Under the pieces are notes generated by a model that was not told the DNA's origin, searched no databases, and saw nothing but the letters and a program-made list of their open reading frames with translations. This document shows, piece after piece, positions 2,004-6,958 of a stretch of 64,000 bases of DNA. The position numbers and the translations under genes were made by a program. Each line of letters begins with the position of its first letter. The stretch's first letter is position 1. The stretch lies in the NCBI RefSeq assembly GCF_029531655.1, contig NZ_JANRMI010000001.1, positions 310,001 to 374,000 of the forward strand, in the 5' to 3' direction. This stretch comes from Bdellovibrio svalbardensis. Lineage in GTDB: Bacteria; Bdellovibrionota; Bdellovibrionia; Bdellovibrionales; Bdellovibrionaceae.

Positions 2004-2771
2004 ATGAGCGTTTCAACGAGTATTATACGTCTGCAAGATGTGACTGTGGCTTTTGATTCACAGGTCGTTTTGAAGTCCATTGATTTGGAAATCAAAGCCG
2101 GTGAATCATTTGTCATTGTAGGCCCCAGTGGGCAGGGTAAAACGGTCTTGTTGAAAACCATGGCAGGCTTGATAAACCCTCAGAATGGCAAAGTTTTTGT
2201 TGAACAGAAAGAGTGGTTAACGCTCAGCCCCAAAGAGCGCCTTCCCTTGCTTAAAAAGATGGGAATTTTGTTTCAAAAGAATGCACTTTTTGATTCGCTC
2301 ACATGCTTGGAGAATATTGCATTCCCGCTTCGCGAAACGACTCAACTCACCGAATGGGAAATCATTAAGAAGGCTGAATACTTCCTGGAGGCGGTGGGAA
2401 TTCCCCATGCGCGGGATCTTTTCCCGGAGGAAATTAGTGGCGGGATGCAAAAACGTCTCGGCATCGCTAGAGCACTAGCTTTAGATCCAGAGATTATTTT
2501 CTACGATGACCCCACTGCCGGCTTGGATCCGATCACATCCAAAAGAATCATTGAGCTGATTATCGATTTGAAAAAGAAAAAAGGCTCTACAGTGATTGCA
2601 ATAACAAATGACATGAATCGGGCCTATCAACTTGCAGATCGCATGGGAATGGTCGTGGATCAAGAGCTGCTGATCACTGGATCTTCCGAGAAAACAAAAC
2701 TACATCCCGATGCTCGAGTTCAGCAGTTCATCCGTGGAACGCTAACAGGCCCTCTGACGGCCATCACTTGA
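2004..2771 (+). CDS. MlaF-like ABC ATPase, first of two, with altered catalytic residues
   Basis: This is the nucleotide-binding subunit of an MCE/Mla-type phospholipid transporter in the inner membrane. The 255 residues from ATG 2004 contain Walker A GPSGQGKT and the signature ISGGMQKR. Two catalytic residues differ from the family norm. Walker B reads FYDDPTAGLDP, with Asp in place of the catalytic Glu. The switch position reads AITNDMN, with Asn in place of the H-loop His. Both are seen directly in the codons (GAT GAC, and AAT). In-frame codons upstream (from 1932) precede the natural MlaF-type N terminus, so I prefer 2004, although its RBS is weak. A second, different ATPase follows, so this subunit probably pairs with it as a catalytically weak partner. 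Confidence 0.9.
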   Translation: MSVSTSIIRLQDVTVAFDSQVVLKSIDLEIKAGESFVIVGPSGQGKTVLLKTMAGLINPQNGKVFVEQKEWLTLSPKERLPLLKKMGILFQKNALFDSLTCLENIAFPLRETTQLTEWEIIKKAEYFLEAVGIPHARDLFPEEISGGMQKRLGIARALALDPEIIFYDDPTAGLDPITSKRIIELIIDLKKKKGSTVIAITNDMNRAYQLADRMGMVVDQELLITGSSEKTKLHPDARVQQFIRGTLTGPLTAIT

Positions 2772-2804
2772 CCCGAGCTTTATTCGGAACGTAAACTTAA
2801 GAGA

Positions 2805-3536
2805 GTGATAGAATTTAAAAACCTCGTAAAAAAATTTGGCACAAGAACAGTGCTTAACGGATTAAGTCTGAATATTCGCGAGGGAGAAATCATCTTCGTG
2901 CTGGGGACATCCGGCACCGGTAAATCTGTCTTGCTAAAAAATATTGTCGGTTTGATGACCCCTGATGAAGGAGAGATCTGGATCGATGGGCAGGAAGTCT
3001 CTAAATTCACCGAAGATCAATATCTTCCGATTCGAAAAAAGTGCGGAATGGTCTTTCAGCATCCCGCTTTATTTGATTCACTGACCATCTTTGAAAATGT
3101 GGCTTTCAGTCTTCGTCGCCACTATCAACTGCCAGAGACTGAAATAACTGAAAAAGTAAAAACAGCTCTCAAACTTGTGCATCTTCATGGTGTCGAAAGT
3201 AAAAAGCCGGCGCAAATTTCCTATGGAATGCAAAAGCGGGTGAGCTTGGCCAGAACCATTGCTTTACAACCAAAAATTCTGCTGTTCGACGAGCCGACGA
3301 CGGGGCTTGATCCCGTGACAACAACGGCAGTGAACCAGTTGATTCAAGATCTTTCCAGAGAGCTGAAAACCACTTCCGTCGTGGTCAGTCACGACATGAA
3401 TTGCGCACTTTCAATCGCTGATCGCATCGTCGTTCTTGATAAAGGGCAAATTGTCGCCTTGGGAACTCCCGATGAGCTGAAACGCTCAGAAATTCCTTTG
3501 GTGCGCGACTTCCTGGCGGAGGCGCTCACAGTATGA
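2805..3536 (+). CDS. MlaF-like ABC ATPase, second of two, with degenerate signature motif
   Basis: A 243-residue ATPase of the same operon, starting at GTG 2805 (M-I-E-F-K-N-L). Walker A is GTSGTGKS, Walker B LLFDEPTTGLDP keeps the catalytic Glu, and the switch VVVSHDMN keeps His. The ABC signature is ISYGMQKR, with Tyr at the first Gly of the SGG triplet. These changes are the mirror image of those in the upstream ATPase. The stop codon overlaps the start of the next gene (ATGA at 3533-3536), which supports tight co-translation with the permease. Homology to MlaF/Ttg2A is clear; the substrate is unknown. Confidence 0.92.
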   Translation: MIEFKNLVKKFGTRTVLNGLSLNIREGEIIFVLGTSGTGKSVLLKNIVGLMTPDEGEIWIDGQEVSKFTEDQYLPIRKKCGMVFQHPALFDSLTIFENVAFSLRRHYQLPETEITEKVKTALKLVHLHGVESKKPAQISYGMQKRVSLARTIALQPKILLFDEPTTGLDPVTTTAVNQLIQDLSRELKTTSVVVSHDMNCALSIADRIVVLDKGQIVALGTPDELKRSEIPLVRDFLAEALTV

Positions 3537-4312
3537 GTTATTTTATTACGGTTCTCGATGAATTGGGCGGAACGCTCTTATTCTTTAATAAAATCATTTC
3601 GACGCTATTTAAAAAAGCCCCAAAGTCCCATGACGTATTCGAACAGATTTGGAAGGTCACCGCAGATAGCTTTCTAACGACGGCAATGGCGGGTTTCTTT
3701 GTGGGTGCTATCATGAGTGTGCAATTCGCTATGCTTATGAAAGAGTTCGGTGCTCTTGGATACTTAGGGGGACTGGCGACCAGTGCCACTTTCAGAGAAG
3801 TCGGTCCATTGTTGATCGCTTTCATGCTCAGTGGAAAAGTCGGCGCATTTACCTCAGCGGAGCTTGGCACGATGAGAGTCACCGAGCAGATCGATGCAGT
3901 TCGCTGCTTGGGCGCGGATCCTATGCAGGAGATCATCGCACCTCGCTTTATCGGCATTATCATAGCCAGTTTTTTCCTGCTGGGAGCGGGCCTTATCATG
4001 TCGGTATTTGGCGGCATGCTTTTGGGTGATCTTTTTGGCGGAGTGAATTTCGAAGAGTATTTAAGACATATTCCCACCATCGTAAGTCCAATTTCCATAT
4101 TGAGTGGCCTGGTGAAATGTTTTGCCTTTGCCGTGGTTCTGGCGACTGTTTGCACCTTTAAAGGATATAGCACAACAGGGGGGGCAAAAGGGGTAGGTAG
4201 AGCCGTGGTCTCTACCGCCGTCACGACGATGATTTGCATTGTGGTTATGGACTGGTTCACAAGCTTCCTGGGTGAGATTTTTCTGCAAATTATTCGAGGA
4301 TACCGCTCATGA
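3533..4312 (+). CDS. MlaE-like permease, first of two
   Basis: An integral inner-membrane permease of the MlaE (YrbE) family, 259 residues, with about five hydrophobic segments. Family hallmarks are visible: REVGPLLIAFMLSGKVGA, the coupling region LGTMRVTEQIDAVRCLG near residue 115, and APRF after it. It would form the membrane channel through which lipid passes between the MCE ring and the inner membrane. It overlaps the preceding ATPase and the following permease by four bases at each end. A second, divergent permease next door suggests a heterodimer, where the well-studied Mla system uses a homodimer. Confidence 0.93.
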   Translation: MSYFITVLDELGGTLLFFNKIISTLFKKAPKSHDVFEQIWKVTADSFLTTAMAGFFVGAIMSVQFAMLMKEFGALGYLGGLATSATFREVGPLLIAFMLSGKVGAFTSAELGTMRVTEQIDAVRCLGADPMQEIIAPRFIGIIIASFFLLGAGLIMSVFGGMLLGDLFGGVNFEEYLRHIPTIVSPISILSGLVKCFAFAVVLATVCTFKGYSTTGGAKGVGRAVVSTAVTTMICIVVMDWFTSFLGEIFLQIIRGYRS

Positions 4313-5028
4313 TTTCACTTCTTGCGGATACCTTTTTTGGTCTTTTTGCCCCGCCATTTCGCCGCCGTGAATTTCTGCAACAGCTCTATTTTGTGGCGAA
4401 TAGAAGTCTGATTATCATTGTTTTTTGCGTCAGTTTCGCAGCTATTGTGACCATTCTGGAGTCCTCCTTCCATATGAAGATGGTCATTCAAAATGATTCG
4501 ATGGTCCCAGGCTTTGCAGCAGTATTAATTTTGCGAGAGCTTGCGGCTGTGGTGATGGCGCTTTTGCTGGCTTCCAGAGTTGGGGCGGGATATGCCTCTG
4601 AAGTGGGAAGCATGCAAATCACTGAACAAATCGATGCCCTAAAAATGTTGGGAATTGATCCCGTTAACTATTTGGTGGTTCCAAGATTTCTGGCCTGCGT
4701 ACTTGGCGCAACCATATTAACAGTGGTTGCCAATATGTCGTGCCTTTTCTCTGCGATGCTGGTGAGCCAATCCTTATTGGGCTACACGCCGGGAATGTTC
4801 ATCGCTTCAATGCACAGATTTATCCAGTTCAGGGACATTATTTTTGCGATGATCAAAGGGGCTTGCTTCGGTGGAGTGATTCCTATCGTGGCTTGCTATT
4901 TTGGTTTTAACTGTCAGCAAGGTGCTGAGGGGGTGGGGAGAGCCACAACAAATACGGTTGTGGTCGCTTCGATTGCCATTATTGTGATTGATTTTATTTT
5001 ATCGTACACTTTTAGCCATCTCTATTAG
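4309..5028 (+). CDS. MlaE-like permease, second of two
   Basis: A second MlaE-family permease, 239 residues, clearly different from the upstream one. It has the same diagnostic stretch in another version: LLASRVGAGYASEVGSMQ then ITEQIDALKMLGIDPV, followed by VPRF. It starts at ATG 4309 inside the stop of its neighbour (ATGA). Together with two ATPases and one MCE protein it completes a predicted A-B-type transporter. A small inverted repeat begins right at its stop codon (5028-5066). Confidence 0.92.
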   Translation: MISLLADTFFGLFAPPFRRREFLQQLYFVANRSLIIIVFCVSFAAIVTILESSFHMKMVIQNDSMVPGFAAVLILRELAAVVMALLLASRVGAGYASEVGSMQITEQIDALKMLGIDPVNYLVVPRFLACVLGATILTVVANMSCLFSAMLVSQSLLGYTPGMFIASMHRFIQFRDIIFAMIKGACFGGVIPIVACYFGFNCQQGAEGVGRATTNTVVVASIAIIVIDFILSYTFSHLY

Positions 5029-5066
5029 CAAAAGGTGCCCACAAGAATGTGGCCGACACCTTTTGC
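5028..5066. repeat. Dispersed palindromic repeat, copy 1 (diverged, long hairpin)
   Basis: Arms GCAAAAGGTG (5028-5037) and CACCTTTTGC (5057-5066) enclose a second inverted repeat, CCACA-TTCT-TGTGG read on the minus strand. Read on the minus strand it is preceded by GTGAA, as in copies 2 and 3. It sits between the second permease and the MCE gene, so it may form an mRNA hairpin inside the operon. Confidence 0.75.
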
Positions 5067-5096
5067 TTCACACGGAGTGTTGAAGTAGGAGCGTTT

Positions 5097-5873
5097 ATGA
5101 AGGTTGAAACCAAGGTTGGTTTTTTGGGTTTGGTGAGCATCATCTTGATCGCTCTGTTTGCCTATTTCATGGGATTCATTTCGCCTTTTTCAAATAGCAA
5201 AGAGCTGAACGTGATGTACAACTATGCAGGCGGCATAGAAGAAGGTTCGCCTGTTCGTGTGATGGGTATCAAAGTGGGAAAAGTGAAAGCGATTACTTTT
5301 GATCCTTCCTATAAGATGCCCAATGGGGAAGAGGCAAAACTTCGCCTGACAATTACGATTGATAAAAAAGCCTGGACCAGCGTCCGTAAAGATTCCAAAT
5401 TTTTCATCAACTTAGCGGGTGTGATTGGGGAAAAGTTTCTGGAAATCTCTGCAGGCTCGGTGGATTCAGGTGAATTTTCAAATGGCGATTATGTGCGTGG
5501 TGAGGATCCACCCCGTATTGATCAGTTGATCTCTCAAGGTTACGGTTTGGCCGGAAAACTTATTGAGATCGTTGAAAAGAACCAGGGATCTGTGACAAAC
5601 GTCATCAAACAGCTCGATAACTTGACGACAAACTTCAATAAGACGCTTTTGCTCTTGGATAAAACGACGAAGAATCGCGAAGTGGCAAGATTGCTTGATA
5701 ATGCCATCAAAATCAGCGATGACATGGCATATTTGACGAATAATATGAGATCCAAAAAAGCGGAAGAGACCTATGATTTGGTTCACAAGCTTTTATTCCG
5801 CTTGGAACCGTTGGACGGACCAACCCTCAAGAAGTTCTTTCAAGAGGAAGGGGTCAGAGCCCGCGTGTTCTAA
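5097..5873 (+). CDS. MlaD-like MCE-domain protein of the lipid transporter
   Basis: A substrate-binding MCE protein anchored in the inner membrane, expected to form a periplasmic hexamer that hands lipids across the periplasm. The 258-residue protein has one N-terminal membrane helix (about residues 8-27). The MCE domain follows: VMYNYAGGIEEGSPVRVMGI, KVGKVKAI, then NLAGVIGEKFLEISAG. A long alpha-helical C-terminal tail comes after about residue 150. I chose ATG 5097 because GTAGGAG lies just upstream and the N terminus MKVETKVG is the family norm; in-frame codons from 5049 overlap the repeat. One MCE protein serving two ATPases and two permeases is the expected stoichiometry for a heteromeric transporter. 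Confidence 0.93.
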   Translation: MKVETKVGFLGLVSIILIALFAYFMGFISPFSNSKELNVMYNYAGGIEEGSPVRVMGIKVGKVKAITFDPSYKMPNGEEAKLRLTITIDKKAWTSVRKDSKFFINLAGVIGEKFLEISAGSVDSGEFSNGDYVRGEDPPRIDQLISQGYGLAGKLIEIVEKNQGSVTNVIKQLDNLTTNFNKTLLLLDKTTKNREVARLLDNAIKISDDMAYLTNNMRSKKAEETYDLVHKLLFRLEPLDGPTLKKFFQEEGVRARVF

Positions 5874-5891
5874 TAATCTCTGGGAGGTTCC

Positions 5892-6545
5892 ATGCTAGAT
5901 ATCACAGCACGTTTTGCTGCCCTTTTGCTGACGACCGCGGCTTTCGCAACATCTGCCCAAGCTGCCACACTGAGTGCCGATTCCAGCACTATCAGCACCA
6001 AAGCAACATCAATCGAGAAGTCCTACAGCCAGGATATGCGTGAGGAACGCAATTCGACTTCCATGAGTTATGCCTCCACTTTAAAGATGCGAGCGGATCT
6101 GCGCATGGGCGCCGGTATCGCAGTGGGTGGCCCACTTGGGGTTGTCGGCATGAATGCGGAGTTCAACTTTGAAGATGAGAACAGCGTGATCGCCGGATTT
6201 GGCACGGGCCCTGGTTATAATTCAATACAGCTCGCATGGAAGCATGCTTATGAGGGCGATTATATTGCTCCTTATTTCACGGCAGGCTATTCGCGCTGGT
6301 ATAATTCCAGCAACAGCGGCGATATTAATCGCTCCAGCATTCTAGACCGTGTTTTGACAGATGACGAAAAAAAGACCGGAAAATTCGGCACAGATTTTCT
6401 CAATGCGTCTTTCGGACTTCAATATAATCAGCTTTCGGGCACCTTCTTCGGCTTTTCTTGTTTCGCGGAAATAGTCGGAATGTATGAAGTTAAAAGGGCT
6501 CAATTGATTCCATCTGGAACTTTTGGAACCATTTATTACTTCTAA
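5892..6545 (+). CDS. Exported small beta-barrel-like protein, last gene of the MCE operon
   Basis: The family is not recognised. The 217-residue protein has a signal peptide ending near ATSAQA (residue 24), then alternating hydrophobic/polar strands and a C-terminal Phe (TIYYF), typical of outer-membrane barrels. GGGAGG precedes ATG 5892, and it starts 18 bases after the MCE gene. By context it could be the outer-membrane partner of the transporter, a place held by MlaA in other systems. That role is inference only; it does not look like MlaA. A strong terminator follows. Confidence 0.75.
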   Translation: MLDITARFAALLLTTAAFATSAQAATLSADSSTISTKATSIEKSYSQDMREERNSTSMSYASTLKMRADLRMGAGIAVGGPLGVVGMNAEFNFEDENSVIAGFGTGPGYNSIQLAWKHAYEGDYIAPYFTAGYSRWYNSSNSGDINRSSILDRVLTDDEKKTGKFGTDFLNASFGLQYNQLSGTFFGFSCFAEIVGMYEVKRAQLIPSGTFGTIYYF

Positions 6546-6574: not shown

Positions 6575-6599
6575 GGGGGCTTTAAGGCCCCCTTTTTTT
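6575..6599 (+). terminator. Rho-independent terminator of the MCE operon
   Basis: GGGGGC (6575-6580) and GCCCCC (6587-6592) form a stem with a six-base loop, followed by TTTTTTT. It lies 30 bases after the stop of the last operon gene. Confidence 0.92.
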
Positions 6600-6814: not shown

Positions 6815-6838
6815 GTGTACTAAAAGTACAGCTGCTAA

Positions 6839-6958
6839 CTACTTAGCGGCTTTTTTAGTTGCTTTTTTAGCAACTTTTTTTGTAGCTTTTTTAGCTACTT
6901 TTTTAGTAGTTTTCTTTGCAACTTTTTTAGTAGCTTTTTTTGCTGCTTTCTTTGCCAT
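6839..6958 (-). CDS. 39-residue Lys/Ala-rich histone-like repeat protein
   Basis: A very small gene with an excellent RBS (AGGAGG, six bases before ATG 6956-6958) and its own terminator. The protein is almost purely a tetrapeptide repeat: KK followed by two of A, V or T, nine times, giving 19 lysines in 39 residues. This resembles the C-terminal tails of histone H1-like bacterial proteins and basic DNA- or RNA-binding peptides. A role in nucleoid packing is an inference. TTGACG around 7047-7052 on the minus strand could be a -35 element, but no clear -10 was found. The repetitive DNA comes from the repeating codons, not from a mobile repeat. Confidence 0.85.
   Translation of the reverse strand: MAKKAAKKATKKVAKKTTKKVAKKATKKVAKKATKKAAK

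Follow-up and report, generated by a model that had tools for sequence, protein, structure and literature searches.

Among lipid transporters of the MCE type, E. coli MlaFEB is twofold symmetric (PMC7790496), and mycobacterial Mce1 places a YrbE1A/YrbE1B permease heterodimer on a homodimer of the ATPase MceG (PMC9882608). The first-pass annotation of the locus described here held that characterised Mla systems are symmetric. This stands for the ATPases; it does not for the permeases, as Mce1 already has a heterodimeric one (PMC9882608), and permease asymmetry alone is therefore not new. Within an ABC dimer, each ATP site consists of Walker A, Walker B, the Q-loop and the H-loop from one subunit and the signature from the other (PMC7756269). 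Degenerate sites have a recognised pattern, with Asp replacing the catalytic Glu together with changes to the H-loop and to the signature of the partner (PMC7756269).

The window, a stretch of 64,000 nucleotides from Bdellovibrio svalbardensis, contains in its first part (2004-6545) a compact plus-strand operon of six genes, A1, A2, P1, P2, M and O. Together these encode two unlike MlaF-type ATPases, two unlike MlaE permeases, one MCE protein and one predicted 8-stranded barrel of outer-membrane type:

A1, 2004..2771, plus strand: MlaF-like ABC ATPase; Walker A and the ISGGM signature are intact, the Walker B Glu is replaced by Asp169 and the switch His by Asn202
A2, 2805..3536, plus strand: MlaF-like ABC ATPase; Walker A, Walker B and His196 intact; signature ISYGM, with Tyr140 for Gly
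P1, 3533..4312, plus strand: MlaE-family permease
P2, 4309..5028, plus strand: second, divergent MlaE-family permease
M, 5097..5873, plus strand: single-MCE-domain protein with an N-terminal TM helix; the ORF as listed begins at 5049
O, 5892..6545, plus strand: signal-peptide-like N-terminus, predicted 8-stranded outer-membrane beta-barrel, YYF end; candidate outer-membrane partner
Terminator-like hairpin with a T-run, 6575..6592, plus strand: strong, after O

The A2/P1 and P1/P2 gene pairs each share a 4-nt overlap. The gene bounding the operon on the opposite strand encodes malate dehydrogenase (819-1763), and the hairpin probably marks the end of the operon. Downstream, a terminator scan revealed a run of short hairpin-like AGCTTTTTT-type repeats on the minus strand (6830-6950). 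Read on that strand they would be Lys/Ala-rich, possibly a histone-like protein.

Pfam searches of the operon gave two matches to ABC_tran, two to MlaE and one to MlaD. The MlaE permease domain PF02405 was present in both P1 (E 1.9e-58) and P2 (E 2.8e-63), in keeping with the first-pass description of two different MlaE permeases accompanying the ATPases, and the MCE/MlaD domain PF02470 was present in M (E 1.7e-17). The NCBIfam MlaF model was the top match for A1 and the second for A2, both under its equivalog cut-off. Searches of the PDB matched A1 and A2 to MlaF chains, with MceG as the best match of A1, and P1 and P2 to solved MlaE chains; the only MlaE-type permease chains found there were MlaE and YrbE1A/B. 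The list of operon ORFs and Pfam revealed no MlaB (STAS) gene, and neither MlaC nor MlaA was present among the operon genes.

The two ATPases differ in their catalytic motifs. A1 contains Walker A GPSGQGKT, signature EISGGM, Walker B IIFYDDPTAGLDP and H-loop AITNDM; the corresponding motifs of A2 are GTSGTGKS, QISYGM, ILLFDEPTTGLDP and VVSHDM. Residue alignment with E. coli MlaF placed Asp169 of A1 in the column of the catalytic Glu170 and Asn202 in that of His203. For A2, alignment with the A. baumannii and P. aeruginosa MlaF chains placed Tyr140 in the column of the first Gly of the signature SGG, and Glu163 and His196 were canonical when aligned to solved MlaF chains. These alignments bore out, at the positions given, the first-pass reading of A1 (Walker B Asp, switch Asn, good ISGGM) and of A2 (intact Walker B and His, broken ISYGM). 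As A1 has a flawless signature without the His, and A2 a flawless Glu and His without the signature, a complete site would form only when A1 faces A2.

To place these motifs in context, orthologous loci were collected from relatives, a genome-wide scan and phylum samples. The 144 loci yielded 104 distinct A1/A2 pairs from Bdellovibrionota, 100 of which had every motif readable. The predicted good site was represented by 12 columns, namely Walker A G/G/G/K/S, the Q-loop Q, the Walker B D and E and the H-loop H of A2, and S, G and G of the A1 signature. All 12 were identical in all 100 pairs. The A1 D-loop, which faces this site, was likewise AGLDP in 100/100, and the D-loop of A2 was variable.

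The predicted bad site showed a different picture. Its A1 H-loop residue was Asn in 91 pairs, Ser in 7 and His in 2 (non-His in 98/100), and the first Gly of its A2 signature was replaced by Tyr in 90 and by Phe in 10 (aromatic in 100/100). The least constant defect was that of the A1 Walker B, with Asp in 81 pairs and Glu in 19. The A1 defects first described therefore hold for the H-loop (Asn or Ser) but are not universal for the Walker B Asp; nearly constant are the loss of the switch His in A1 and the aromatic substitution in the A2 signature. Sporadic losses affected the second Gly of the A2 signature (3/100) and the second Gly of the A1 Walker A (2/100). The Q-loop Gln and the Walker A Lys of A1 were both kept in 100/100 pairs, the latter indicating that ATP binding is retained. 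In deep-branching families (L268, L270 and L276), the A1 Walker A reads GPGACGKS or GPSNSGKS and the A2 signature SFA, GFS or SFS; here the degenerate site is further decayed and the good site is intact.

This comparison of the Walker B, H-loop and signature columns across Bdellovibrionota shows the changes to be phylum-wide, and conservation of the motifs in 100 distinct pairs rules out strain-specific noise or chance. The idea of complementary defects within one site also survived it: across the 100 pairs, all changed catalytic residues map to one site and the other is invariant. Catalytic Glu, H-loop His and partner signature are thus altered in the same predicted composite site, with the Glu change in only 81 of the 100 pairs, and the opposite site is canonical. 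Single-ATPase MCE systems of the same phylum (S1 and S2, used as single-permease controls) had canonical ATPases in all members aligned, and the solved MlaF and MceG chains aligned had canonical motifs.

Our data suggest that the product of the operon is very probably a lipid ABC transporter whose ATPases, A1 and A2, form a heterodimer with a single degenerate site. The one-sided pattern is predicted by such an obligate heterodimer and not by two homodimers. In particular, the perfect A1 signature, despite the loss of A1's own His, implies that it serves the nucleotide of another subunit. Counting against this reading, the His is still present in 2 of the 100 A1 proteins and the Walker B Glu in 19. 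From these sequences we infer a functional asymmetry between the two ATPases, their assembly as a heterodimer and the pairing of P1 with P2; occlusion of the degenerate site, the lipid substrate with its direction of movement and the role of the barrel are conditional in the same way.

In the proposed transporter, the A1:A2 ATPase heterodimer and the P1:P2 permease pair would carry a ring of M on top, giving an MCE-type lipid ABC transporter (MlaFEDB-like, type VIII). Both pockets would bind ATP. The hydrolysing pocket would comprise Walker A, Walker B and the His of A2 with the signature of A1. The degenerate pocket, comprising Walker A and B of A1 with the signature of A2, would be without the switch His, usually without the catalytic Glu and without one signature Gly. 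ATP would stay bound there, hydrolysed little if at all, and the pocket would serve as a clamp like those of TM287/288, TAP and CFTR. One hydrolysis event per cycle would then drive lipid movement.

An alternative that retains the A1:A2 heterodimer is that both sites hydrolyse well enough, the substitutions being tolerated drift of no mechanistic meaning. A Walker B Asp does still allow slow hydrolysis in known cases (PMC7756269), and 19 of the 100 A1 proteins keep the Glu. However, across the divergence of a whole phylum 98/100 pairs lack the switch His and 100/100 have an aromatic signature residue, and drift would be expected in the other site too, which never changes. We consider this explanation quite unlikely. 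A still less probable one, which we rate as very unlikely, is that the operon encodes two symmetric transporters, A1:A1 and A2:A2, each with its own permease and sharing the MCE protein. The presence of two ATPases and two permeases would fit, as would the occasional encoding of A1 apart from A2. Yet in an A1 homodimer the His, and mostly the Glu as well, would be missing from both sites although the signature is conserved in 100/100; in an A2 homodimer both sites would pair a Tyr or Phe signature with a catalytic Glu and His that never vary. Only across A1 and A2 do the invariant residues complete one site, and the operon has a single MCE gene. Finally, it is highly improbable that A1 is a non-transport pseudo-ATPase regulator standing in for MlaB while A2 homodimers do the work: the missing MlaB/STAS gene, the lost catalytic residues of A1 and its location away from the core genes in some genomes agree with this, but Walker A, Q-loop, D-loop and signature of A1 are almost fully conserved, which would be needless outside an ATP sandwich, and A2 homodimers would have two altered signatures.

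A1 and A2 tend to be found in the same genomes. The gene order A1-A2-P1-P2 was seen from Bdellovibrio down to the deepest families in the sample, followed by M wherever the contig extends far enough. Among genomes of the order or class, A1 and A2 each had matches in 71, and 70 genomes had both. The A1-only exception (G298) has an orphan-like A1, and the assembly of the A2-only genome (G078) is 89% complete. Genomes of the order without A1 were generally without an A2-grade match too, and those examined for MlaE had mostly one to three such genes, compared with the usual five. The best 80 loci of the genome-wide scan carried labels consistent with Bdellovibrionota, except for a few vague or evidently mislabelled MAGs; the system may also occur in other phyla. 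No relatives were visible on plasmids, where tblastn with A2 returned only generic ABC ATPases, the best of the matches listed having ~44% identity.

A1 and A2 are separated in several genera by unrelated genes, which frequently lie on the opposite strand (L041:4851-6595, L126:7751-10856, L051, L052, L053, L134 and L139). Some genomes encode A1 elsewhere, such that A1 and A2 are not always co-transcribed. Where other genes split them, A1 would need its own expression; its motif state is unchanged.

Phylogenetic trees resolved A1, A2, P1 and P2 as one clade each. The A2 clade (SH-aLRT 99) had the S1 ATPases as nearest relatives, and A1 formed a separate clade with its orphan relatives. A recent tandem duplication giving A1 and A2 was rejected, as these genomes encode another MlaF-like ATPase to which A2 is closer than it is to A1. 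On a trait-masked, unrooted tree of A1 and A2, 5 changes were required for each of three traits: Walker B E/D, H-loop N/S/H and signature Y/F. A1 proteins with a Walker B Glu clustered mainly in a single clade that does not belong to the window's order. P1 and P2 were each monophyletic (100 and 99) and did not join YrbE1A, whose branch is very long; the deep branching of P1, P2, the S permeases, MlaE and YrbE1A lacks resolution because of long branches.

The orphan A1 paralogues (L071, L077-L080, L082, L084, L086, L091 and L092) have no adjoining permease or MCE gene. They keep the Walker B Asp and have an H-loop His. Several lie opposite a divergently transcribed protein of ~190 aa, and the two such proteins tested had no Pfam match. 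These paralogues are possible alternative partners of A2.

Other MCE systems of the same genome were also noted. A third system (L095:5560-8058, minus strand; contig C7 of G000, about 96.5-99.1 kb) has a single ABC ATPase in which nearly all catalytic motifs are lost: Walker A AEEGAGKS, Q-loop Gln to Asp, signature VPGR, Walker B DD, D-loop GLGQ and H-loop Tyr. Its ORF is intact, shows 77-92% identity within the genus and is about as well conserved as the permease of that system, which suggests that this MCE system works with a pseudo-ATPase. In the canonical single-ATPase system, the MCE protein (L093:8857-10212) has 452 aa and a long extension past the MCE domain. Its C-terminus looks beta-rich, reminiscent of Veillonella-type MlaD with its outer-membrane barrel (PMC10665443).

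M most likely begins at ATG 5097 and not at GTG 5049, as judged by the conserved MKxETKVG and by AGTAGGAG just upstream of 5097. Its structure model shows a single TM helix and a single MCE domain, followed by a helical stretch of ~110 C-terminal residues at low confidence. The model is weak past residue 160, and a claim that M forms a periplasm-spanning needle was dropped because the C-terminal half is too uncertain (pLDDT about 52-73).

For O, the only Pfam match was OMP_b-brl, sub-threshold. The model is a well-formed 8-stranded barrel (strand pLDDT mostly >92), preceded by a signal-like helix at the N-terminus and ending in Phe; its Foldseek matches were barrels of OprF, OmpA and the OmpX/Ail type, at E 1.6e-05 to 7e-04. 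O recurs downstream of M in the family and part of the order; BLAST did not find it in more distant loci. The first-pass proposal of a barrel-like protein ending the operon as a possible outer-membrane partner thus gains a predicted 8-stranded barrel, but one that is missing from many relatives of the operon. By analogy with the Veillonella barrel (PMC10665443), a barrel of this size is probably too narrow for lipid passage, making an anchoring or docking role as likely as that of a conduit.

Taken across the phylum, we think it somewhat better than an even chance that these loci define a class of obligately asymmetric MCE lipid transporters with 1:1 ATPases, 1:1 permeases, an MCE ring and a separate outer-membrane barrel. 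One ATP site would be permanently non-hydrolytic, and the envelope lipid conveyor would run on one hydrolysis per cycle. Within the open-access literature (preprints and subscription papers being mostly outside this scope), neither an MCE transporter with two ATPases nor a study of Bdellovibrio MCE systems came to light. No solved structure of an MCE transporter with asymmetric ATPases was found, and the main text of the Bdellovibrio BarSeq paper makes no mention of the operon genes.

Degenerate ATP sites are best known from the exporters CFTR, TAP and TM287/288, and the reason for one disabled site is debated. An independent case, with a different ABC fold and separate ATPase subunits, in a group that includes cultivable Bdellovibrio, would provide a clean comparative test of the purpose of asymmetry. 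Unlike in symmetric MlaFEDB, each ATP site and each permease half could be mutated on its own, which would be of use to MCE biologists.

The operon shares with MlaFEDB of E. coli, A. baumannii and P. aeruginosa (type VIII ABC) an MlaE-fold permease, an MlaF-like ATPase and an MCE protein with an N-terminal TM helix. It is not an E. coli-type MlaFEDB system proper, in which one ATPase gene and one permease gene give MlaF and MlaE homodimers with two canonical sites: its ATPases are unlike, as are its permeases, MlaB, MlaC and MlaA are missing from it, and a barrel gene stands at its end. With Mce1 (YrbE1A/YrbE1B/MceG/Mce1A-F) it shares a predicted heterodimeric MlaE-type permease and MCE proteins with helical C-termini. 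However, it is not a mycobacterial Mce-type system, where a heterodimeric YrbE permease and six different MCE proteins share one homodimeric ATPase; the Bdellovibrio operon has one MCE gene and two ATPases. Veillonella-type MlaEFD is a minimal MCE system without MlaA or MlaC that is genetically tied to a beta-barrel (PMC10665443). There the barrel is the C-terminus of MlaD and has 10 strands, whereas O is a separate protein, predicted to have 8 strands, beside duplicated ATPases and permeases.

The closest parallel for the ATP sites lies with TM287/288, TmrAB, TAP1/2 and CFTR, in which one site has an altered Walker B Glu, H-loop and partner signature and the other is canonical (PMC7756269). 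The likeness to TM287/288 and CFTR proposed at the outset agrees with the one-sided degenerate motifs of the 100 pairs. Those proteins are type I exporters with fused TMD and NBD, whereas A1 and A2 are ATPase-only proteins that would act on an MlaE-type permease carrying an MCE ring. The sequence comparison thus supports a CFTR/TM287-288-like split of labour between ATP sites, now in a predicted MCE transporter.
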